NCBI GenBank assembly: GCA_017506865.1
Contig: JAFCMP010000156.1
Coordinates: 62,001 to 126,000, forward strand
Direction: 5' to 3'
DNA length: 64,000 nucleotides
From: Tribonema minus
Lineage: Eukaryota; Sar; Xanthophyceae; Tribonematales; Tribonemataceae
In this document: one piece after another, positions 16,418 through 28,413 of the stretch
How the letters are laid out: each line of letters opens with the position of its first letter
Numbering within the stretch: the stretch's first letter is position 1
Made by a program: the position numbers and the translations under genes
The notes under the pieces: generated by a model
What the model was told of the DNA's origin: nothing
The model's database searches: none
Seen by the model: the letters and a program-made list of their open reading frames with translations, nothing else

Positions 16418-16610
16418 TGCACATGTATCACATGCAAGCTAGTACCGTAGCAGAGTGGATGATACATTCGATAGAGCACAAAATGTCATTTGTGGCGATG
16501 GCAGGTGCTGTGGTTGTATCTACGTGTGCCGCTTGTCAGCTTTCGTGCAGCTTGTCATCTATACACTGAGCCATACGCTGTTGCGTCAGCGATGCCAAGA
16601 ATATTGCAGA

Positions 16611-16972
16611 TGATACAAAGTCCATGTCACAGTGCAGTTCAAGTGCTGTGTACACCTTTGACTGTACTGTACAAGTGTACTTCAGGCCAGTTCACCTGAG
16701 GACCGTTCCTAGGAATTTGCTTGGACTGTTCCAGGAACTACTTGCACAGAACAATCTGGGGCAGCATCTCTGTGGCTTGCTTGGGTACTAACTCTTGCTA
16801 GCCAGCTGCTGGACAGCAGGGACTCATTGGAGCTGAGCCATCACCGATACACCAGGTGTGTGGTCTTTTCTCCATGCAAGTGGTTAGCCTACATCCTGAG
16901 AGTGAGCTCCTGTTTCCCAGAAGGGCTTGGCCTGCTCATGGAGCATCCCCAGAGGCCTTTCCTTTCGGATCA
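16611..16972 (+). repeat. 5' LTR
   Basis: It is 362 bp, TGATACAAAG...CGGATCA, and matches the 3' LTR base for base as far as I can compare by eye. It should carry the element's promoter and transcription start. Confidence 0.97.
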
Positions 16973-16990
16973 TGGCTCGGCTCCAACTCT
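16973..16990 (+). other. Primer-binding site (tRNA-primed)
   Basis: TGGCTCGGCTCCAAC starts right after the LTR's terminal CA. TGG pairs with the CCA end of a tRNA, as in nearly all LTR elements. The sequence is not the common initiator-Met type TGGTATCAGAGC, and I did not assign the tRNA. Confidence 0.75.
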
Positions 16991-17640
16991 CGGGATAACA
17001 CCAGCGTAGCGCGGAATCACTTTTAGCGCGCCGTATACCCAATGTGACGTCCTCCCAGAGAAGTTGCATTGATGAGTTGCACACTACCATGCCAGGCTTG
17101 CTACTGCGCTTAGCCCGACGAGTAGCGGCACAGTGTTTGCAACGGAATAACTCAGATCTGCATGACATGCAACGCGGCGATCAAAGGCCGAGCCCAGAAC
17201 GTTGCAGCTGGAGCCGCGACATGCATGCTCGTAGCAACATCGCATGTGCGCTCAACCCCCTTACGACTGGACACTGTCGAACGGGTGCTACAGCGGTAGT
17301 CCTCATGGCAAGGAAGGCACGCGGTAGTACTGATCACACTGCTGCGTACAGGCCTGGACGACGCCGGGAACGTCGTTGCTACCCAGCCCTGACTGCTAGG
17401 CATTTTACATAGCCGATGCAGGCCCAGCAATACACCCACTGAAGATTCAGCGTCTTCTGCAAAGAGGGGGTGTTGACAGCTGGATTTAATCATGGGCAAA
17501 GTGTCTTGGCAATCATGTCAAACATGCTGTATCCGAGGGGCGAGAGCCTGCCTGACGTACGCATGCACGGGACATGTTGTCATTGCTATGCCATGCAGAG
17601 CGACCTGCAACAAGCGTAACGGGAGTACATAAGGAGAATC
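16991..17640 (+). other. Retrotransposon 5' leader
   Basis: About 650 bp of untranslated leader lies between the primer-binding site and the first ATG of ORF1. Only short unrelated frames were seen; it may contain the packaging signal. Confidence 0.5.
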
Positions 17641-18306
17641 ATGGCGGATAGCGTATCAAGATCGGCGACGGACAGCTCCGGGGAGGCTGGAACGACCCCG
17701 GGAGGCGAGGGGAACGGTGGCGGTGTGCAGCAGCAAGCGCTCGTGCCCCCCGAGCAGCAGCCGGCGACGCAACCCTTCACGTCGTCGGCCGGTCTAACCT
17801 CATCAGCGACGTCGAGCGCCGCCCCCTCGACCGTCGCAGTGACGGCGACCACCACCGCCCCCGCAACCGGAGCCGCCCCGGTGTCGCTCCCTGCTTCCAC
17901 GGACCCCTCCGGCGCGGGTCTTGGCGTCCCGCCTACGACCTCCGCTCCTCAACCCGACTTCAACGAGATACTGCAAGGGCTGCGTCGCGCCCTGCCGCTG
18001 ATGCCAGAGGGCGCCCTGGCTCAGCTCGCGGGACGCGCCGTCAAGGAGGCGGCCGAGATGACGTCCCCCGTCTCATTTCTCGGCACTCGTCCGCCGGCCT
18101 CATCAGCGCGCCCCTCCTTCACGCCAGGCTTCGCGCCCTTCTACCACGCACCAGACCCTTTCGCCACGCGCACGACTCTGCCTCCTTCCCTCACTGCGGT
18201 GCCCACCGCGGTAGAGCTGGAAGCGACGGTCCAGGAGCTTGAGCGCGCGCTGGATCAACGCATCGCCCACCTAGCAAAGTGGCCGGTGATGCAACTGCTC
18301 AGGTGA
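17641..18306 (+). CDS. Retrotransposon ORF1, Gag-like (221 aa)
   Basis: This is the first ORF of the LTR element and sits where Gag is expected. It starts at ATG 17641 (MADSVSRSATDSSGE) and ends with TGA at 18304. Residues 1-105 are Ala/Thr/Pro/Ser-rich and disordered. Residues 105-145 could be helical (FNEILQGLRRALPLMPEGAL). A short coiled-coil-like segment ELEATVQELERALDQRI lies near residue 200. There is no CCHC zinc knuckle and no recognisable capsid core, and 221 residues is short for Gag, so the capsid function is assigned by position only. The end overlaps the Pol frame, which lies in the -1 frame and is open from 18243. Confidence 0.75.
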   Translation: MADSVSRSATDSSGEAGTTPGGEGNGGGVQQQALVPPEQQPATQPFTSSAGLTSSATSSAAPSTVAVTATTTAPATGAAPVSLPASTDPSGAGLGVPPTTSAPQPDFNEILQGLRRALPLMPEGALAQLAGRAVKEAAEMTSPVSFLGTRPPASSARPSFTPGFAPFYHAPDPFATRTTLPPSLTAVPTAVELEATVQELERALDQRIAHLAKWPVMQLLR

Positions 18307-21300
18307 ACCCAGAGGCTGATCCCGCAGCCTGCGAAGTCACTGGCACGCGTAACCATTTGCTAAGCCGTGAGGTCGGTACTCGCGTGCTAGCAGCTATCAT
18401 GTGCGCCTGTTGCGTGGCTAGGTGCAATGACCATGACACCGACGCCAGAGCTGACGCAAAGCGCAAACGCAGCGTGCCGTGCGCGGCGTCTACAGCGGTA
18501 AGTGGGAATGCCGATCTCACTGACCTTGCTTCCGATCTGTGCGCCACCCCCCGTGACACTTTCGTGCACTTGCAGACTAGGAAGGGGGATGCGTGCGCTC
18601 ACGACGGAGAACCCGACGTGACGGTCAGACCACTGCGAGTGGCAGAGCTTTGTTGCGGGGTGGGGGGTGTACATAGGGGGTTAGAGGACTTTGCAAGACA
18701 CACAGGTGTCAAGGCTGAAGTGGTCCTTGCTGTAGATAGGGCCGAATACACATGCGAGGCGTACAAGCACCAGTTCCCTGGCACAGAAGTTCTATGTGCA
18801 GACATCGCCAGTCCAGCAGTGCTCAAGCGCCTCAAGCAGCTGGAACCCGATGCATTCTGGGTCACTGCCCCATGTGTTGACTTCTCGCCCTCGGGCAAGG
18901 GCGTTGAAGGCGAAGCGGCCAGCGTGTTGCCCTCCGCTGCACAGCTTGCTGTAAATGTACGGCCAAAATTGGTCTTTCACGAGAATGTGCCTCGAATGCT
19001 GTTGTCTGGGGCATGGGGCTGCGCCGACGGCCACATGCGTCAGGCGGGGTATTCGACCTTTGAGGTGCAATTTCGTGGCACTGATGTTGATGGTGGAAGT
19101 TCACGCGAGCGCATCTATACTGTGTCTGCGTGCAACACCCAGGCCACCCCTGCACGTTTTGCCCGCCTGAATGCCCTGTTGAATGAGCGCTTTCGCAGCA
19201 GTACCCCAAAGACTGTGCGCGATTGCACTGGTTGCATGGAGGACACATTTTACTGGGATCCTCGTCAACCGCACCGTGCTGGCGTGCTTTCTACTGACAT
19301 GCCACTGCCTAGCCCTGTGACTCGCCAACCTGGCAAGGGTCCCACAAGGTACGTACAGAGAGCCAAGGATGCCGGTCCTACAAAGGACGCATTGATACTC
19401 TCGCCTGAACAGGTGATGGAGTGCCTGGGCTACCATGAGCCCTACCCTGAAGGCACACTCACCCAGAGACGCAAGTGGGCCGCTGACCTAGTACAGCCCG
19501 CGGCTGTAAGCGCCCTGATGCAGTGTGTTCATGCCGTTGCCTCTCTGCCCAATTGTTGGGAGAGACCTGCCCCCGCTGGCCCTGACGTAACTCCTGGAGA
19601 GGTAACAGTGCATGATCACACGGCGCCGCCGCCGGAGTGGGTCGTGGACGCATCGCAGCCAGCACTACTGAGGATCGCCGGGACCTGCTCAAGCGCGCTA
19701 GGGAGTGCTGCGAACTGGTGTTGGGAGAAAGGGAGAGCGTTTCTTGCTTCGCTGCGCCAAGGTGAGCCAGTGCAATTAAATGAAGTACAGTGGCAACGCG
19801 GTGACGACGAGTCTGACTCTGATTCTGACTCACCAAGAGTAACCGTTGAGCCAGCAGTGCCTCAGTCGACTGCAACACCCAAGACGCCGATGGTAGAAGA
19901 GAGCGCTAACCCTGACTCTGACTCAGCGACACCACTGCAGACTCGCATGACACTGCACGAGTTGAAACCTAGGTGGGCAGCAAGAGGCAAAGCGCCCATG
20001 CCACTCCACAGAGTCACCCCGGTAGGGAGGCCACGCAAGAATGGCTTTGTGCACATGACCATGCGCACACAGGTGGGCGATGCCGTGCAAGAGTTTGGTC
20101 TGGATACACTGGTGGATTGCGGCGCGGAGGCTGAGTTCATCAACAAAGATTCAGCGCACAAGCTGCCGCCGGGCACCATCTGCCCTCTGGCTGATGGGGA
20201 CTTCACTACGGTGGAGCTCGCTGACGCCAAGAAGTCGGTACCTGTAGAAGGGGTGGTGCACGCTCAGGTGCGCTTCAAAGACCACCTGCTGACGCACCGA
20301 TTCTACGTCGTGGACCTGCCTTACCAGGCAATCTTAGGGTCAAACTTCTTTGGCAAGTACGGCTCCGTGATCTCCTACGAGCACGGGATGAAATTCTATC
20401 CCGCTGGCTCGTCAGGCCCCGCTGTGCCCATGCGTGAACGTGCGCGCGTTGGAGCCTTGGAGCCCCCCGAAGCAAACTCCATCAAGATAGGCTCAGCAAG
20501 GGTACACACCAAGGACAAGCCTGTACTGCCAGAACGCAAATATCTTCTCAGAGCAGCCTCAAACCAGGTCATTGACGCTGACACCGCGCACACGCTGGAA
20601 GTGGTGTCTCACCCGCCACTGCAGTGCACAGGTCCTGTAGAGGTGCTGCTAACCCCAGACGTCCCAGAAGCGGTGACGGCCGTGAACAAGTTGGCCGAGC
20701 AAGGCGTTGTGTTGCTGGACTCAGTAGATACTGCCATGCCGAACAAACCACTCAGGCTAATGGCTGAAAACACTTCCACAATGCCAGTGCTCATCCGTAA
20801 GGGAGCAATACTAGGCGCTGTTGAAGCACCGGAGATGGTGTGCGGTCTAGACGTTGACCAAGAGACGCTCACAGCTAACCTCACGCGCATAGCGCTCAGC
20901 CGACTTTCTAGCGACCCCCCAACCGTAAATCAGGTGAAGCCTAGCTCAAATCCCACAGCAACCACACAGGCTGAGGCGGAACGCACCGCTCACAGGCGTA
21001 AGGTAGCTGAGGAGCACAATGCCACCTTAGAGCTCTGCACGGACGAGGAGCTGGCAGACGTGCTGAAGCGGGATGGTAAAGTGATACCTATGTTGGAAGA
21101 GCGCGACAAAGACGGTGTTAAGTACTACGATCGGGTCATGGAAGTGCTACGCCGCAGACGTGCTGCCTTTGCAAAAGACCCCAAAAACCCTAGGGTCACG
21201 GATCGCTTTGACGTGGACATTGATACCGGAGACGCGGCCCCCATAGCCGACAAGGCGCGGCGTTGGGCCGAGCGCGAGGCCAAAATCATTTTTCAAGCGA

Positions 21301-24300
21301 TTCAGGACGAAAGGAAGCGTGGGCAAATCAGACCTGCTAGTGGGCCATGGGCCAGCAACCCTGTGCTGGTGGCTCAAAAGGGCAAGATACGCTTCTGTGT
21401 TGACTACAGACCGCTTAATAAGGTCACAAGACGTGACGAATACGGCTTAGGCAACATGGAGGACTTGATTCAAAAGGTGGCAAGTTCAAGAATTTTCTCA
21501 GCTCTGGACTTTGCCTCAGGCTATAGGCAAATTCCCATGACCAAAGAGTCCTCTTGCAAGACGGCTTTCCGAGGGCCCGATGGCTCCCTATGGGAGTACA
21601 AGGTCGCGCCGTTTGGACTAGTATGTCTGCCCAGCATTTTCACGCGCTGCATGCACGAGCTGTTAGGCGCTGCCAGACAGACTCATGCGTGCGTGTATGT
21701 GGATGATGTGCTGGTTCACAGCAAAGGGCTTGAAGATCACATAGCTCACTTGGACGATGTGCTGCGTCGCGTGGAGGAGTATGGCATGAGTGTGTCAAGG
21801 CACAAGTGTCAACTCTTCGCCGAGGAAGTGACATACCTAGGTCACAAAGTCGGCCGGTATGGCATTAGGCCGTGTGAAGACAAGGTCAAGGCCATGGTGG
21901 ACATGATGCCCCCGCTCGGTAAGGACGGCAAGGTTGACAAACGTCTCATGCAAGTCTTGATGGGATGTTTCAACTACTACAGGCGCTACATTCACCGATT
22001 TGCGTCCATCGCGGCGCCATTGATGGAGTGTACCAGGGACGGTGCTGACATGACATGGAATAAACGCCGTCGAGATGCACTCGCAGAGCTCAAACGCGCG
22101 ATGTCGAGCGCACCCGTTATCATGCACCCAGATTTTGACCTGCCATTCATAGTACACACAGATGCTAGCAAGTTGGCAGTCGCTGGAGTGCTATCCCAGT
22201 TTGTGCCACTTGAGAAGCTTCGAGAGCGGCACAAAGATTTTCCATGGGCTCACACCCGCCGTGCCAAGACGGTGGATGGTAAGCCAGCCAGAGAGGTAGT
22301 TGTAGCATTTTACAGCAAAGTCAATTCAGTGCAAGACGCAAAGCTAGGTGCCACCGCGCTGGAATGCCTTGCTGTAGTGCTGGCCCTGAACAACTTCCGC
22401 TCATACGTGTGGGGTAGGCCAGTAACCGTCATTACAGATGCGTCGGCACTGCGCTGGTTGCTAAAACTGAATAACCATAATAGCAAACTCCTGCACTGGG
22501 CCATGCGCCTCCAGGAATATGACGTCATGGTCGTACACCGCCCTGGTAAGGACAATGGCAATGCAGACTGCCCCTCACGAATGCCTCAAATGACGGAAAT
22601 CCTGGGCCCCAGAGAGTATGACCACGCTGATGAGCAGTGGCCAGACTGTACGGATGCAGGACCTGCTCCGCCTACTGGGGTACGCTTTGAGAGCGAAGAA
22701 GTCGTGGATTCCCCCGCGAATATAGGCAGGATTGGGGCTTATGCCTCATACCCAGATGGCCCTGGCATGCGCTTTAACAAAGTCGCACAGGTATCCCCAG
22801 ACCTGAGCGAGGCCATGCTCAAACTTAACCCCGCACAAGTGCAAGATGCTTTGTTTGACACCTCGCTTGAAAGCAGCAGTGGGGACGCCGTGCTTTTCAA
22901 AGAAGAGGGAGGTGAGCAGCCGGAGCAGTCGGAGCCGGAGCTGCAGGAGCTGGCGCTGGCGTCAATGCTTTGCAATCTGCGCACCGGAGTGTACCCAGAT
23001 GGCGTGTGGGATAGCTGCGCATCACTCTTGGCACAGCAAACGGGTGAGCGTACCGAAACCGAGAACTGTGAAAGCAGCAGCGAGCAGGAACCTCAACTTC
23101 AAGTAGACATGATGTCAGTTGATAGCCCTGTTCAACCCCCCGCGCCAGCAACCTCGGAACACCCTGGGGACCTTGCAGGAGGAAGCTCAGGTCAGCCCGC
23201 AGTGCTTGAGCGCGATAAATTTGTGCAATGGCAAGGGCGTGACTCTTTCTGCATGGCTGTGAGGAATTACCTAGAGGACCGCAATGAACCTTCTGATGCC
23301 AAGTTGGCAAAGTTCATACCCCAGAACCAAGAATTCTTCACGCTAGAGCCTGATGGCCTGTTGGTGCACTTCGCAGCCAGTCGCCCCAAGAGGGGAGCCC
23401 TGATCACACAGTGGGTCACCCCTGAGGCACTGAAGCCCCTGGTGCTACGCATGTGTCACGACGATGGCAGCGCTCAGCACCCATCGACCGCCGCCACGCA
23501 CGCCAAGGTGTTTGAGAACTTCTACTGGCGCGGCATGGGAGCTGACATTCGCGACTACGTGCGCAGTTGCATAGCGTGCCAACAGACCAAACCTCAGACG
23601 ACAGCTCAGTACAAGCAAGTGCTCATGCCCCCTCAGCGCATGTGGCAGCGTCTTCACGTAGACTTCACTGAGCCAGGAGTCATATCTCTTGAGGGGCACC
23701 GCTACCTACTCGTGATAGTGGAAGCCAGGTCTGGCTATTGCTGGATTTTCCCCACTAAAAAAAGATCCGCTGCTGAGGTAGCTCCCCTGCTTGCGAAGGT
23801 GCTGCTTGAATGTGGCACACTGGTGGAGGAGTTGTGCTCGGACGGAGCCAAGGAATTTGTGGGTGCGTTGGTGACTAGCCTCTGCCGGGCCTTTGCTGTT
23901 CAGAAGGTAGAGACTAGCGCACACCACCCCCAGTCTAACGGTGTCGCTGAGAACTTGAACGGTCGTGTCAAGAGGGCCCTGGCCAGAGTGTGCTCGCACT
24001 ACCAGAACCGTTGGCACGAACAAGTTGACATCGTACAGTTTGCACTGAGGAACACTCCCAGGGAAGAGACAGGCCTTACGCCTTTCTTCTGTGTCTTCGG
24101 TCGCGAGGCCAGATTCCCCCTAGATGCCCTCATCTCTAAGCCAGAGTGCACGACAGATCTGCACATAGAGGTGAAGCGGTTACAAGAGAATCTGAAGCTG
24201 GCAGAGTCTGTCATAGGCGAGGCGTTAAGCTCCAGGGCTGAGCGCATCCAAGCTCGTAACGACAAGATTCAACGCACCCTGCATGTAAGTGTAGGCGACT

Positions 24301-24647
24301 ATGTATGGGTCAAAAAGCCGCCCTCTGAAGGACGCGCGAGTGGCCTGGAGGAGCGCTTCACCGGACCCTGGAGGCTGATAGCACCCTACGGTGACTCAGG
24401 GCTGTCATTTCAATGTCAACTCAATGGCGCGCGTGTGCGGCTCACTGATGCACACGTGGAAAACATGAAGCCGTATCACCCTAGGCCTGCTAGACTGGTC
24501 AGCGACGGAGTACACGCCGCCGTAGACCCAGAGCAGCTGAAGGAACTGGACCTTGATCAGCGGTTACAGAGAATTCTAGACCGCAGGGCTAATGAGGACG
24601 GTAGCTGGTCATACAAGTGGCTGGCACGCGACGGTACCTCGTCTTAG
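18279..24647 (+). CDS. Retrotransposon Pol polyprotein with N-terminal cytosine-C5 DNA methyltransferase
   Basis: Residues are counted from codon 18279, which is GTG; the first ATG is codon 41, and the frame is open from 18243. Residues 118-415 form a C5 methyltransferase: motif I AELCCGVGG (122-130), catalytic APC (C199), ENV (235-237), SRERIY (275-280) and a late LSPEQVMECLGYHEPYP segment. The protease has VDCGA (D613) and ILGSNFF. RT has ALDFASGY (D1077) and YVDD (1140-1143). RNase H acidic residues are D1295, E1362, D1387 and D1430. Integrase has an HPSTAATH/CIAC zinc site and the exact D,D-35-E set D1795, D1855, E1891. A GPY/F-like FTGPW lies near 2027. A chromodomain begins near 2090 and is cut by TAG at 24645. 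All catalytic residues are present. Confidence 0.95.
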   Translation: MAGDATAQVNPEADPAACEVTGTRNHLLSREVGTRVLAAIMCACCVARCNDHDTDARADAKRKRSVPCAASTAVSGNADLTDLASDLCATPRDTFVHLQTRKGDACAHDGEPDVTVRPLRVAELCCGVGGVHRGLEDFARHTGVKAEVVLAVDRAEYTCEAYKHQFPGTEVLCADIASPAVLKRLKQLEPDAFWVTAPCVDFSPSGKGVEGEAASVLPSAAQLAVNVRPKLVFHENVPRMLLSGAWGCADGHMRQAGYSTFEVQFRGTDVDGGSSRERIYTVSACNTQATPARFARLNALLNERFRSSTPKTVRDCTGCMEDTFYWDPRQPHRAGVLSTDMPLPSPVTRQPGKGPTRYVQRAKDAGPTKDALILSPEQVMECLGYHEPYPEGTLTQRRKWAADLVQPAAVSALMQCVHAVASLPNCWERPAPAGPDVTPGEVTVHDHTAPPPEWVVDASQPALLRIAGTCSSALGSAANWCWEKGRAFLASLRQGEPVQLNEVQWQRGDDESDSDSDSPRVTVEPAVPQSTATPKTPMVEESANPDSDSATPLQTRMTLHELKPRWAARGKAPMPLHRVTPVGRPRKNGFVHMTMRTQVGDAVQEFGLDTLVDCGAEAEFINKDSAHKLPPGTICPLADGDFTTVELADAKKSVPVEGVVHAQVRFKDHLLTHRFYVVDLPYQAILGSNFFGKYGSVISYEHGMKFYPAGSSGPAVPMRERARVGALEPPEANSIKIGSARVHTKDKPVLPERKYLLRAASNQVIDADTAHTLEVVSHPPLQCTGPVEVLLTPDVPEAVTAVNKLAEQGVVLLDSVDTAMPNKPLRLMAENTSTMPVLIRKGAILGAVEAPEMVCGLDVDQETLTANLTRIALSRLSSDPPTVNQVKPSSNPTATTQAEAERTAHRRKVAEEHNATLELCTDEELADVLKRDGKVIPMLEERDKDGVKYYDRVMEVLRRRRAAFAKDPKNPRVTDRFDVDIDTGDAAPIADKARRWAEREAKIIFQAIQDERKRGQIRPASGPWASNPVLVAQKGKIRFCVDYRPLNKVTRRDEYGLGNMEDLIQKVASSRIFSALDFASGYRQIPMTKESSCKTAFRGPDGSLWEYKVAPFGLVCLPSIFTRCMHELLGAARQTHACVYVDDVLVHSKGLEDHIAHLDDVLRRVEEYGMSVSRHKCQLFAEEVTYLGHKVGRYGIRPCEDKVKAMVDMMPPLGKDGKVDKRLMQVLMGCFNYYRRYIHRFASIAAPLMECTRDGADMTWNKRRRDALAELKRAMSSAPVIMHPDFDLPFIVHTDASKLAVAGVLSQFVPLEKLRERHKDFPWAHTRRAKTVDGKPAREVVVAFYSKVNSVQDAKLGATALECLAVVLALNNFRSYVWGRPVTVITDASALRWLLKLNNHNSKLLHWAMRLQEYDVMVVHRPGKDNGNADCPSRMPQMTEILGPREYDHADEQWPDCTDAGPAPPTGVRFESEEVVDSPANIGRIGAYASYPDGPGMRFNKVAQVSPDLSEAMLKLNPAQVQDALFDTSLESSSGDAVLFKEEGGEQPEQSEPELQELALASMLCNLRTGVYPDGVWDSCASLLAQQTGERTETENCESSSEQEPQLQVDMMSVDSPVQPPAPATSEHPGDLAGGSSGQPAVLERDKFVQWQGRDSFCMAVRNYLEDRNEPSDAKLAKFIPQNQEFFTLEPDGLLVHFAASRPKRGALITQWVTPEALKPLVLRMCHDDGSAQHPSTAATHAKVFENFYWRGMGADIRDYVRSCIACQQTKPQTTAQYKQVLMPPQRMWQRLHVDFTEPGVISLEGHRYLLVIVEARSGYCWIFPTKKRSAAEVAPLLAKVLLECGTLVEELCSDGAKEFVGALVTSLCRAFAVQKVETSAHHPQSNGVAENLNGRVKRALARVCSHYQNRWHEQVDIVQFALRNTPREETGLTPFFCVFGREARFPLDALISKPECTTDLHIEVKRLQENLKLAESVIGEALSSRAERIQARNDKIQRTLHVSVGDYVWVKKPPSEGRASGLEERFTGPWRLIAPYGDSGLSFQCQLNGARVRLTDAHVENMKPYHPRPARLVSDGVHAAVDPEQLKELDLDQRLQRILDRRANEDGSWSYKWLARDGTSS
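18630..19520 (+). other. DNA cytosine-C5 methyltransferase domain inside Pol
   Basis: These enzymes transfer a methyl group from S-adenosylmethionine to cytosine C5. Motif order I-IV-VI-VIII-IX-X is canonical. Deviations are APCVDFSPSG for the usual PPCQxFS motif IV and SSRER for QxRxR in motif VIII, but the nucleophilic Cys, the ENV Glu and both motif VIII arginines remain. The domain is compact, with no extra reader domains, more like a bacterial or retroelement-captured enzyme than a maintenance DNMT1. The specificity is unknown. Confidence 0.92.
24645..24647 (+). other. In-frame TAG inside the chromodomain
   Basis: The chromodomain reads ILDRRANEDGSWSYKWLAR up to GTSS, then TAG, then WIHEKEFAESFIVPSWVLD in the same frame. 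The W after the stop fits the conserved Trp of chromodomains, so the stop sits inside the fold. It could be a readthrough site or a new nonsense mutation. Confidence 0.85.
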
Positions 24648-25463
24648 TGGATTCATGAGAAGGAGTTTGCAGAGAGTTTCATAGTGCCGTCCTGGGTGCT
24701 AGACACTTTTCATGCCCTCTCTGAGATCCAACACGAAGGTCACATGCCGTCGTACGCAGAACGCCCTAGCCCACGTGAGGACCGCTCACTACCTAAAGAC
24801 GAAGCGTTGAAGCGCTACCCTTGTGGCACTCAGGTGGTAAGGCAAATTTCAGGTGCCGATCCCGAGACCACTGAGTACATTTGGGGCCAAGTGCGCGACT
24901 TCGTACGATTTAAGTGGCGAGTGCGTTACACGGATGGAATTTGGGAGGACCTGACATCGGCACAGGTACGCTCGGGGAAGTTGCTAGCAGAAGGTGTGCG
25001 AGACAGGCCACGCAGGCTGGCGCGTGAACGAGACAAGCCTGACCCTGCTGAGCATGCTGCAGATATTACAGCTGACCCGCCCCCAGGCGTGCGAGTCACG
25101 GTGTGCCCCCACGTTCCCACCAACTTTGGGCCACTGTACGTCGGGCAAGTACTGCGCTACAGGTTCCCAACGGGCTGGAGCCGTGGCAAACTGCTAAGGC
25201 ACATCTCATCGAACCGTGAGCGTGGGGAGCACGTATTTGATGTAGAGTTCCCCAATACGCGCGGAAACAGGCCGATGGCGAGGCGCCTGAAGCTCCGCCA
25301 AGAGTACTACCGCGACGATCGCAACGCTGAACCTTCCTCGTGGAACCTGCTATTGGCACAGGAAGTCATAGAGCAGCCTGAAACCCCCCACACTCCCATA
25401 GAACCTCAGGTTGCGTTGGGCCAGAATGACCTAGGACCGCGCAAACGCCCGCGTCGCCGTTGA
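24648..25463 (+). CDS. Pol C-terminal extension: chromodomain end and Tudor-like modules
   Basis: This frame is continuous with Pol after a single TAG. The first in-frame ATG (24744) lies past the chromodomain, so translation most likely depends on stop readthrough. It begins with the second half of the chromodomain (WIHEKEFAESFIVPSWVLD). Around 24870-24965 is a Tudor-like strand pattern (WGQVRDF...WRVRYTDGIWEDL), as in domains that bind methylated histones. A second related unit starts near 25130 (LYVGQVLRYRFPTGWSRGKLL). The C terminus is basic (RKRPRRR) and could be a nuclear localisation signal. It ends with TGA. The Tudor assignment rests on pattern only; targeting of integration to chromatin is inferred. 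Confidence 0.75.
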   Translation, partial: WIHEKEFAESFIVPSWVLDTFHALSEIQHEGHMPSYAERPSPREDRSLPKDEALKRYPCGTQVVRQISGADPETTEYIWGQVRDFVRFKWRVRYTDGIWEDLTSAQVRSGKLLAEGVRDRPRRLARERDKPDPAEHAADITADPPPGVRVTVCPHVPTNFGPLYVGQVLRYRFPTGWSRGKLLRHISSNRERGEHVFDVEFPNTRGNRPMARRLKLRQEYYRDDRNAEPSSWNLLLAQEVIEQPETPHTPIEPQVALGQNDLGPRKRPRRR

Positions 25464-25697
25464 AGCTGTGCTGACCCTGTGCGTTAGCACTGGAGAGCAG
25501 TGTCATCGTCACGCACCCGGTGCACGCCAGACCGCCTAGGGTTTGACACGCGCCGCGTAGCCGGCCAATGAGGGACTTGAGAGCGTGTACCGTGGTGGTG
25601 ATGATGCGACAATGAACACCGATGCTGTCTTCTGCGTTTAACAAGTATCATAAAACGCCGTGCGTCTCATGGGCGCGCCGTGGACGGCGGCCCTTTC

Positions 25698-25709
25698 AAA
25701 GAAGAGGGA
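25698..25709 (+). other. Polypurine tract
   Basis: AAAGAAGAGGGA lies directly before the 3' LTR, where plus-strand DNA synthesis is primed. Confidence 0.85.
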
Positions 25710-26071
25710 TGATACAAAGTCCATGTCACAGTGCAGTTCAAGTGCTGTGTACACCTTTGACTGTACTGTACAAGTGTACTTCAGGCCAGTTCACCTGAGG
25801 ACCGTTCCTAGGAATTTGCTTGGACTGTTCCAGGAACTACTTGCACAGAACAATCTGGGGCAGCATCTCTGTGGCTTGCTTGGGTACTAACTCTTGCTAG
25901 CCAGCTGCTGGACAGCAGGGACTCATTGGAGCTGAGCCATCACCGATACACCAGGTGTGTGGTCTTTTCTCCATGCAAGTGGTTAGCCTACATCCTGAGA
26001 GTGAGCTCCTGTTTCCCAGAAGGGCTTGGCCTGCTCATGGAGCATCCCCAGAGGCCTTTCCTTTCGGATCA
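25710..26071 (+). repeat. 3' LTR
   Basis: It is 362 bp and identical by eye to 16611-16972. It is followed by CAGA, the duplicated target site. Confidence 0.97.
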
Positions 26072-26621
26072 CAGAGAACATTGCATTGCCGGTAAACACA
26101 GAATGTGGCACCTTGCTGAGCAGAGTTCAAGTATGGCAGCATGCAAACGTTTGAGGTGGAGTGGATATGAGCTTCCGTGCCGGCTTTCGTACTATCAGCG
26201 GGCCGCTTGATTTAGTGGTCATAACACACAGCCACAACCTTGGTGCTTGCTGCGATGTCTCCACGACACAAGTCGGAGGCAGCGGGTAAAACACAGCCAG
26301 TGCGGCCCACACACTGTTTATGGTTCTGTCTTGTTCTGCTTTCCGACTCATTTTACTCGTTCTGTTTAAGCACAAAAACTCCGGAGAAATATCTGTTTAT
26401 ACTTTTCATTGCTCAAAACTTGATTCAGCATGTGCCTCATGTGCCTGTCCCATTTAAAGTGTACTGAAGGCATCCCTACGTGCTTCCGTGTTCAAACTTC
26501 AGTGACGTTAGCATTTATTTAGTTTACCATCTATCCCAAACCTTCGCAAACTTCTTCCTGGAAGCCTCTACATACATGTCTTACGAGCAAGTGTGCTTAG
26601 TGGGGTGGTTCTGACGTGCAG
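26072..26621. other. Spacer after the retrotransposon, no gene recognised
   Basis: Apart from the CAGA target duplication at its left edge I see nothing supported. Confidence 0.4.
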
Positions 26622-28413
26622 GCGGCCCTCTGGGCATATCGCATGAGGTGGCGGCGAGCGCCGCCGCTGCCGAGGGCGCCGCCGCGCTGCGCGCGTTCAA
26701 CGCACACGTGGAGCAAATGCGAGCGTTCGCAGCGGCCGCAACGCGTGCGCACAGCACGGAGGTCGCTGCGTTGCGCGCTGCTGCCGCGGGTGGCGCTGCC
26801 GCGCTGCGCGCCCGCGATGCCGAGCTGGCGGAAACGCGCGCGTCCGGCGCGGCGGCGGCACGCGCGCATGAGGCGCAGCTCTCCGCGTTGCGCGTCGCTG
26901 CCGCGGAGGGCGCTGCCGCGCTGCGCGCCCGCGACGCCGAGCTGACGGAAGCACGTGCATCTGCTGCGGCGGCGGCGCGCGCATATGAGGCGCAGCTCTC
27001 AGCATTGCGCGCCGCTGCCGCAGAGGGCGCTGCTGCGCTGCGCGCCTGCGACGCCGAGCTGGCGGAAGCGCGTGCATCCGCTGCGGCGGCGGCGCGCGCG
27101 CATGAGGCGCAGCTCACGGCGTTGCGCGCTGTCGCCGCTGCAGGGGACGCTGCTGCGCTGAGCGCTGACGACGCCGGGCCGCCGAGGACCGCAGCGGCGG
27201 CGCGCACGCAAGTCGTAGCGCCGAGCGCTGCTGACGCGGTGGGCGCCGCCGCTCACCAACAGCGCATGCCGCTCAGTGCAGTCGCTGACGAGGGGGCAGT
27301 GGAGGGTGGGTCGGCTCGATCTGCGGAAAGTGCGGTGCTGGGGGCGCGCAGTGAGGCAGTGCTCGACCCGCAGCTTGCGACTGCACCCGCTGAGCATGGG
27401 CACACCACCACACTTGAGGGCGGCGCACGATCGTGGGGAGAGCATGGGCCGCAGACGAGAGTGCCGATATGCACAGTGGCGGCAGCTGGCGTTGTTTGCG
27501 CATCGCTTCATTCTTTGGGGCCTGCAGGGCACACGGCGGAAGTTCAACATGCATCCCATGATGCTGCCGACCATACGCGCAGGACACAGGCGGGCTGCAC
27601 GGTACGGCAAACGCAGACACGCCCATCAGCAACGGCTTTGCTACCGGCGGAGGCGGCGCAACTCGCTGCGGAGGCGGCGCAGCTCGTTGCAGATGCGGGC
27701 AGGGCAGCGCAGTCGCAGGGGCAACGGTCCGCACGCACCAAGCGCAAGCGAGGTGCATCCTCGAATGCACCGGCGGAAACTGCCACCTCGGATGCTGCTG
27801 GCGGGGCTGCTGCAGCGGCGCAGCAAAGGGAGGTGAGCGTACCACCAGGTGCTGTGAATGCAGATGCTGCTGGCAGGGCTGCTGCAGCGGCGCAGCGAAG
27901 GGAGGCGAGCACAGTGGCCGCTGCAGCCTGCGCCGCCGCCAGGGCCAATGTTGAAAATTTCTTCAAGGTTTGTGACATGCAGGGAGTGGGAGCATTCGGA
28001 AACAAACTGCCACAGTACAAGTGCTCGCTGGAGCGTCCGACGCAAAAAAGATCATCGGCACGGGCATCGCGATGGTGGACTGGTACGCTTCAACGGAGAC
28101 ATCGCGTGGCACGCGATGGTGGTTTGGCCGCGTTGATAAATGCGCCGTCCTACCGCAAGCGCATCAACACCCGCAAAACACGTCTGCCAGCGTACAGTAC
28201 CTGCAGTTGTACGTGCAGTGGCGCCATCCCTTGGACCCAGCGGCTGCCGAGAGTTCCCAGCAGCTGCACAGCTCCGCTGACTATCGCGATGACAACGAGA
28301 CCAGGCTGCGCACCAACAGCTGGTTCGTTTGGGGTACCAGCACCCAGATTGCTCGCCTGCAGGACGTGCGAGAGATGCGACATGTGAGAGATGCATCCGC
28401 TGATACACTATAA
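26622..28413 (+). CDS. Alanine-rich coiled-coil protein with C-terminal Trp-rich domain, frame-broken
   Basis: An open frame follows a splice-acceptor-like CTGACGTGCAG. Residues 1-180 form a 39-residue (117-bp) repeat, about four copies, of the type ALRARDAELAEARASAAAAA, rich in Ala, Glu and Arg and strongly helical. A basic patch (RTKRKRG) follows. Near a run of six A (28044-28049) the meaningful frame shifts by -1. The new frame continues for about 120 residues (KIIGTGIAMVDWYAS, RWWFGRVDKCAV, LQLYVQWRHPLDP, WFVWGTSTQIARLQDV) to TAA 28411. This C-terminal part resembles chromatin-reader-like WWFGRV...VQWxxPLD patterns, but the family is not assigned. The break is either an assembly error in the A run or a decayed gene. 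It lies about 550 bp after the retrotransposon. Confidence 0.5.

Follow-up and report, generated by a model that had tools for sequence, protein, structure and literature searches.

A C5-cytosine methyltransferase in the polyprotein of Ty3/gypsy retrotransposons of Tribonema minus

Introduction

Cells often use cytosine methyltransferases to silence mobile elements, and a mobile element that carries such an enzyme itself raises the question of what it does there and how it was acquired. The question is posed by a stretch of 64,000 nt from Tribonema minus (Xanthophyceae, Stramenopiles), contig JAFCMP010000156.1 (C156), positions 62,001-126,000, hereafter the window. In it, a Ty3/gypsy long terminal repeat (LTR) retrotransposon spans positions 16611-26071 and encodes a C5-cytosine methyltransferase ahead of its protease. 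Retrotransposons with a cytosine methyltransferase are known from dinoflagellates and charophytes, and the published enzymes are of the DNMT3 or an orphan LINE type (PMC5890265). A 2025 survey repeats these cases, with Copia where the 2018 paper has Gypsy, and names orphan lineages (PMC12344493).

Results

The methyltransferase shares one frame with Ty3/gypsy Pol

The original prediction, made from this DNA alone, had placed a C5-methyltransferase in one frame with the protease motif, reverse transcriptase (RT), RNase H and integrase of a Ty3/gypsy element, and Pfam and motif evidence agree on this arrangement (Table 1). Residues 132-317 of the main frame match DNA_methylase (PF00145, E-value of 4.8e-16); further matches are to RVT_1 (2e-32), RT RNase H (9.4e-23), Integrase_H2C2 (3e-18) and rve, the last narrowly below the cut-off (5.7e-7). 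The best solved relatives of the RT, at the top of 12 PDB matches, are 4ol8 (E-value of 1e-57) and the Ty3 Gag-Pol 7q5b (1.2e-56). No Pfam protease family matched in the window copy, where the protease is assigned by motif only; in the relatives P0002 and P0003, PF13975 was found with E-values of 9e-4 and 8e-5, both below the cut-off. The enzyme had been located at 18630..19520, which is right, and the extent of its domain is here set at 18627-19547.

The assignment to Ty3/gypsy is borne out by paired LTRs with a short target site duplication, by the order protease, RT, RNase H and integrase, and by an RT of the Ty3 type. The two LTRs of 362 bp are 100% identical and have TG...CA ends, a CAGA duplication lies on each flank, and the LTR sequence recurs in other copies. 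The LTRs, the target duplication and the primer site are additions made here to the element as first described. The primer site is near-identical, with a few bases' difference, in 11 of 12 other copies compared at the LTR end; the twelfth (L017) has the outward side of a 3' LTR there. Searching the genome for the pattern AGTTGGAGCCGAGD gave no exact place and no primer tRNA was matched; this search used the form of the window copy only, and the primer site of most other copies differs from that form by one base.

All 24 distinct fetched copies with an unbroken domain have the motif IV Cys, the motif VI Glu and the motif VIII Arg (L026 repeats the window copy, and L027 and L028, in which the domain is broken, were dropped by a length rule). 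These catalytic residues are kept in every sampled family despite identity down to about 32-33%, while motif IV takes the forms APCVDFS, SSCVEFS, PPCTDFS and PPCTDYA across families and motif I deviates in individual copies, L033 and L031 among them. The AlphaFold2 model of the domain (predicted local distance difference test score, pLDDT, of 85.6) is two-lobed, and the predicted fold is that of a complete C5-methyltransferase.

A single capture inherited by many copies

We searched the T. minus assembly (158 Mb in 554 contigs) for the domain and obtained 129 matches, fragments included. Family A, to which the window copy belongs, accounts for about 20 matches at 97-100% identity, a B group lies near 63%, and C1 and C2 form a large group at 33-37%. 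An open frame of at least 1000 codons surrounds 98 of the 129 matches, one of at least 2000 codons 63, and one of at least 3000 codons 27. Pooled genome searches raised the number of distinct methyltransferase-match places to at least 283, a lower bound because only the best candidates were scored, and a count that includes fragments, some stand-alone frames and at least one host gene (DNMT2 at C523).

Querying the genome with the RT yielded 82 distinct places, 82 of 658 candidates having been scored. At 77 of these best 82 places a methyltransferase match is found on the same strand no more than 8.5 kb upstream; at the other five there is none. A one-off insertion is thereby rejected, and the objection that sister copies might all be devoid of the domain, raised with the original prediction, did not hold. 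The fetched family-A copies have the domain at the same position, it shares one frame with Pol in families B, C1 and C2, and it also occurs in P0001, P0002 and P0003, proteins of ENA records.

Trees of the RT-RNase H and of the methyltransferase have the same shape for six lineages (A, B, C1, C2, P0002 and P0003; C1 is represented by L033 and L034, one in each tree). The branches common to both have support of at least 98 in both values, and P0007, another ENA protein, lacks an RT and takes its place in the methyltransferase tree with support of 76/82. From this agreement it follows that the methyltransferase was captured once, before the sampled families split, and has been inherited since. 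It evolves faster than the RT, with identities of 63% and 88%, respectively, between A and B, 46% and 70% between A and P0002, and 36% and 54% between A and C2. The domain search of T. minus lists no unbroken match at 46-49%, the similarity level of P0002, P0003 and P0007, and the element clade to which these belong therefore probably extends beyond the T. minus genome.

PF00145 or the DNMT2 query also matched long frames, of about 2500-3100 codons, at C340:8319, C101:636029, C145:3063, C66:311936, C312:55546, C175:112952 and C533:1881515. Some cover nearly the whole PF00145 model, and they are perhaps further methyltransferase-bearing retroelement families.

The domain is under purifying selection

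Between the window copy and L025, the ratio of nonsynonymous to synonymous change (dN/dS) in the domain is 0.117 (16 synonymous and six nonsynonymous changes; p = 2.7e-6 against neutrality). It is 0.18 for L030/L031, 0.195 for L033/L034 and 0.196 between A and B, where synonymous change is near saturation. A ratio was obtained in eight of 11 comparisons, some of which share loci, and seven of the eight lie at 0.117-0.209. Counted per site over 17 family-A rows, the domain ratio is 0.24 (19 synonymous, 14 nonsynonymous); the same kind of count, based on few changes, gives 0.07 for the protease, 0.32 for RT-RNase H and 0.91 for the integrase. The domain is under purifying selection and, since the catalytic residues are kept at identities down to about 32-33%, selection has acted through several family splits.

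In all five comparisons of more diverged copies, transitions at CpG are 1.94-2.16 times those at other C/G. This excess is a weak sign of CpG methylation and is not specific to the element enzyme.

The window copy has lost part of its Gag-like region

The N-terminal Gag-like frame of the window copy is cut short by the loss of about 1.69 kb at 18264-18271. This stretch is present in 13 of the 19 other family-A loci aligned and missing in four (L014, L015, L016 and L021); the other two are uninformative, as L017 starts at the junction and L024 is rearranged. In L012 the Gag-like region and a C2HC finger, recognised by eye, are in frame with the methyltransferase, and the Gag-like region is also continuous in P0001; no Pfam family matched the region of L012 above the cut-off. 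The "very short Gag-like ORF" ahead of the enzyme in the original prediction is a deletion product of this copy.

Two distinct internal Gag deletions can be told apart: the window copy has the junction of L016, and L014, L015 and L021 share another of frame-preserving length. Each is shared by at least two copies that stand apart in the genome and retain methyltransferase and Pol, and the Gag-shortened copies were therefore probably moved by Gag made elsewhere. As a further correction to the original prediction, the polyprotein of the window copy is interrupted by an in-frame stop at 24645-24647 that is missing from all four other copies compared. Its identical LTRs, Gag deletion and stop together make it a young copy that is not intact.

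Downstream of the integrase, the C-terminal region appears to carry Tudor/Agenet-like barrels: the PF21743 match is below the cut-off and the Agenet/Tudor matches score weakly. A PDB search with this tail gave nothing useful, the best hit being a plant virus coat protein (E-value of 0.18).

Just 3' of the element, at 26615-28387 of the window, lies a 590-codon Ala-rich frame with 117-bp tandem repeats. The gene model JKP88DRAFT_354395 (P0004) joins pieces of the element, this frame and EGF-like exons, and looks like a chimeric annotation.

Table 1. Features of the methyltransferase-bearing element, in positions of the window.
Feature	Position	Strand	Basis
Target site duplication, left copy (CAGA)	16607..16610	.	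Flank sequence
5' LTR, 362 bp, TGAT...ATCA	16611..16972	+	Exact repeat of 364 nt, 16609-16972/25708-26071, cut back to TG..CA ends
Putative tRNA primer binding site, TGG start, abuts 5' LTR	16973..16990	+	Sequence
N-terminal Gag-like fragment ORF, 221 aa, truncated in window copy	17641..18306	+	ORF
Open frame methyltransferase-protease-RT-RNase H-integrase, 2134 codons stop to stop	18243..24647	+	ORF and Pfam
Junction, about 1.69 kb of Gag-like region including C2HC finger missing	18264..18271	+	Alignment of copies; same in L016
C5-cytosine methyltransferase domain, 307 aa	18627..19547	+	PF00145
Motif I AELCCGVGG, AdoMet site	18642..18668	+	Motif
Motif IV TAPCVDFS with catalytic Cys	18864..18887	+	Motif, alignment
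Motif VI HENVPR with catalytic Glu	18978..18995	+	Motif
Motif VIII SRERIY	19101..19118	+	Motif
Block PLPSPVTRQPG between motifs VIII and IX/X	19302..19334	+	PSPV.R.PG invariant across 10 rows of alignment A2
Aspartic protease active-site stretch LDTLVDCGAEAEF	20100..20138	+	Motif; PF13975 in relatives
Reverse transcriptase, YVDD within 21693-21722	21378..21851	+	PF00078
RNase H	22131..22520	+	PF17917
Integrase, H2C2 zinc finger and DDE core	23421..23960	+	PF17921, PF00665; D, D, E motifs
In-frame stop cutting C-terminal region of window copy	24645..24647	+	ORF, motif comparison
Remainder of C-terminal region past integrase, Tudor/Agenet-like barrels (weak)	24648..25463	+	
Polypurine tract, ahead of 3' LTR	25698..25709	+	Sequence
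3' LTR, identical to 5' LTR	25710..26071	+	Exact repeat
Target site duplication, right copy (CAGA)	26072..26075	.	Flank sequence

Class and origin of the captured enzyme

A simple capture of DNMT3 as in Klebsormidium was considered and rejected, as the profile of the enzyme has no affinity to DNMT3. The 28 PDB matches of this profile within an E-value of 1 contain no DNMT3 chain, and there is none in the 50 VIA rows listed, although the latter excludes nothing. A DNMT3A query found nothing in the host genome at an E-value of 0.001 or below, its two places lying at 0.0105 and 0.0315, and no element copy within an E-value of 1, with only two candidates passing the first look; the query does find plant DRM2 in the PDB below 1e-17. 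A point on the other side is that the approximately unbiased (AU) test does not reject a clade with DNMT3A (p = 0.178).

The enzyme is also set apart from the DNMT2 gene of the host, which lies in separate frames at C523. Neither PPCQPFTR, the DNMT2 form of motif IV, nor CFT, another motif of DNMT2, occurs in the element sequences compared. The original prediction had allowed that a tree might place the domain with an ordinary host gene; no specific grouping with host DNMT2 was found, in a tree that took in this one host methyltransferase. Its suggestion of an independent capture has become the better reading, with a third eukaryotic lineage and a class unlike KnitGypsy-Dnmt3 by profile. Given this other host lineage and class, the capture was probably independent of that of KnitGypsy-Dnmt3.

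As for a donor, profile A1 was run against viral_contigs and genome_contigs, where 58 and 70 pattern-matched stretches, respectively, included no confirmed relative. In protein searches the close relatives are all element-borne or fragments and, far below these, bacterial- or phage-looking enzymes follow; the latter rows are biased towards our profile because they were picked by it. The best BFVD fold matches, to a phage enzyme (Siphoviridae sp. ct0yh16, E-value of 1.8e-20, TMq 0.83) and then to Yasminevirus, do not show a viral donor. Within the T. minus genome, the best PF00145 scores (E-values of 1.7e-35 to 9.5e-31) belong to stand-alone frames of 367-390 aa at C223:937874, C223:702740 and C181:39962, which are possibly host or virus-derived methyltransferases and candidate donors. 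A DNMT1 query matched five neighbouring short frames at C223:827886-831796 (-) and four at C346:899765-902753 (+). These frames, of about 290-540 aa (E-values of 1e-9 to 4e-4), lie outside long retroelement frames and look like tandem arrays of methyltransferase-like genes.

Discussion

Proposed self-methylation and its rivals

We propose that a Ty3/gypsy lineage of T. minus took up the methyltransferase once, between Gag and protease, and that selection kept the domain. The full polyprotein would read Gag, C2HC finger, methyltransferase, protease, RT, RNase H, integrase and Tudor/Agenet-like tail. Lying after Gag and before the protease, the enzyme would enter the particle along with Gag-Pol and have the genomic RNA, the primer tRNA and the cDNA within its reach. 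There it may methylate the element's own new cDNA before or at integration. A new copy would then arrive in the genome pre-marked, either escaping defences against foreign DNA or quiet enough for the host to tolerate it, and the host maintenance enzyme DNMT5 could keep the mark. We put the chances of this overall explanation, from capture through carriage in the particle to self-methylation, at about even.

Several observations weigh against it. In C5-cytosine methyltransferases a Gln or Asn follows the catalytic Cys, Gln being common to the DNA enzymes, and motif X is of the GNAV type; both traits are visible in the reference rows of our alignment. In the element enzyme the residue after the Cys is V, S or T and not Gln, motif X is divergent (LVQPAAV or LIQPNAV), and in family B a Ser precedes the catalytic Cys (SSC) in all three fetched copies (L029, L030 and L031). 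The eighth dN/dS ratio comes from the window copy and L023, which differ by five nonsynonymous changes and one synonymous change, a comparison that runs counter to purifying selection. Across 16 comparisons of the youngest copies, the CpG transition ratio ranges from 0.53 to 2.32 with a mean of about 1.3, and the CpG bias is mild and may stem from codon constraint or host DNMT5. Methylation of cDNA or new copies is rated the likeliest activity because a DIRS-borne enzyme could methylate in yeast; the KnitGypsy and LINE enzymes, assayed alongside it, yielded no methylation, a result that the authors of the test call inconclusive (PMC5890265).

The strongest rival is that the domain is an RNA methyltransferase like DNMT2, which would act in the particle on the genomic RNA or the primer tRNA, for protection or priming, and leave the DNA unmarked. 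It carries weight because DNMT2/TRDMT1, a tRNA enzyme, appears to be the closest family in sequence, and this affinity is a further point against the DNA-methylating reading. DNMT2 is nearest by single sequence (9hgm, E-value of 1.5e-9; 1g55, 3.9e-9) and in a profile search (2e-12 vs 2.1e-8 for M.HhaI). Profile-profile comparison over motifs I-VIII ranks DNMT2 (7.9e-21) ahead of bacterial/phage enzymes (8.1e-18), M.HhaI (4.6e-11), DNMT1 (3.5e-8) and DNMT3A (6.7e-8), the weakest of the five, and puts DNMT2 nearest for six of seven lineages taken singly. A tree built from references without DNMT5 and DNMT6 sequences joins the element lineage to DNMT2 with support of 91/86 (not starred). On the other side, the VIA comparison places the enzyme slightly nearer to bacterial enzymes, with M.HaeIII/M.HhaI as the nearest fold. 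We know of no LTR retrotransposon that puts 5-methylcytosine on its own genomic RNA or primer tRNA. The Ser-Cys in motif IV of family B is like that of S. pombe Pmt1 (PSC, from sequence), which methylates tRNA-Asp and was once believed dead owing to the Ser change (PMC5372726). Overall we consider an RNA substrate somewhat unlikely, and a shade less likely still that the whole Ty3/gypsy radiation uses a captured DNMT2-like enzyme on its own RNA or primer tRNA as an anti-silencing or priming device. With a tRNA enzyme as the apparent nearest family and a Pmt1-like Ser-Cys in family B, the choice between DNA and RNA can be tested with isolated A and B domains.

A non-catalytic reason for keeping the domain, such as nucleic-acid binding or a structural part in Gag-Pol, is rather improbable. 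Such a role would fit a motif IV without Gln behind the Cys and with SSC in family B, a divergent motif X and the altered motif I of some individual copies, L033 and L031 for example. It would also fit the stretch of the catalytic loop (residues 81-90), the least confident inner part of the AlphaFold2 model with a mean pLDDT of 53. A dead domain would, however, be expected to lose the Cys, Glu and Arg, which are kept at about 32-33% identity.

We think it very unlikely that the tail aims the enzyme at host chromatin near integration sites, for the choice of silent sites or the silencing of neighbours and rivals. This would suit the weak Tudor/Agenet-like barrels and a published Tudor-bearing element, Gypsy-10_Ec32, with its T. 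minus homologue (PMC12477816), but protease cutting would part the methyltransferase from the tail. A host gene or an assembly artefact fused by chance to a retroelement, as the chimeric gene model P0004 might suggest, can be dismissed, refuted by the many copies with the domain in place in family A, in frame with Pol in B, C1 and C2 and in ENA proteins, and by a host DNMT2 gene that lies elsewhere.

Comparison with known systems

Among the closest published counterparts of this element is KnitGypsy-Dnmt3 of Klebsormidium nitens, likewise an intronless Ty3/gypsy LTR element whose Pol frame includes a C5-methyltransferase, with several copies and a Ka/Ks under 0.2 (PMC5890265). By its published description it is set apart by its enzyme, DNMT3 there and without DNMT3 affinity by profile here, and by a host in another supergroup. 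SymbioDIRS-Dnmt3 and SymbioLINE-Dnmt of Symbiodinium are also retrotransposons with C5-methyltransferases in very many copies, and the enzyme of the latter is also an orphan lineage; unlike ours they are DIRS and LINE elements rather than LTR Ty3/gypsy, and the DIRS enzyme is a DNMT3 (PMC5890265). Gypsy-10_Ec32 and its Tribonema homologue share with the present element an ochrophyte host and Ty3/gypsy membership, and their C-terminal Tudor-type tail may have a counterpart in the weakly scoring barrels seen here; compared by description only, Gypsy-10_Ec32 differs in that the available excerpts mention no cytosine methyltransferase for it (PMC12477816).

Among enzymes, DNMT2/TRDMT1 is like the captured one in profile, in its compact domain and in motif I (GVGGMH in human DNMT2, GVGGVH here), whereas the element enzyme is without PPCQPFTR, shows no CFT and is fused in a retroelement polyprotein. 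M.HaeIII and M.HhaI stand at 14-20% identity, and the element enzyme differs from them in the missing Gln after Cys and the divergent motif X.

Excerpts from the open-licence PMC literature name no stramenopile Ty3/gypsy element as carrying a cytosine methyltransferase, and T. minus adds a stramenopile host to the retrotransposons bearing one. Since the enzyme class differs by profile from that of the published gypsy case, the comparison suggests that capture of cytosine methyltransferases by retrotransposons recurs and is not tied to DNMT3.
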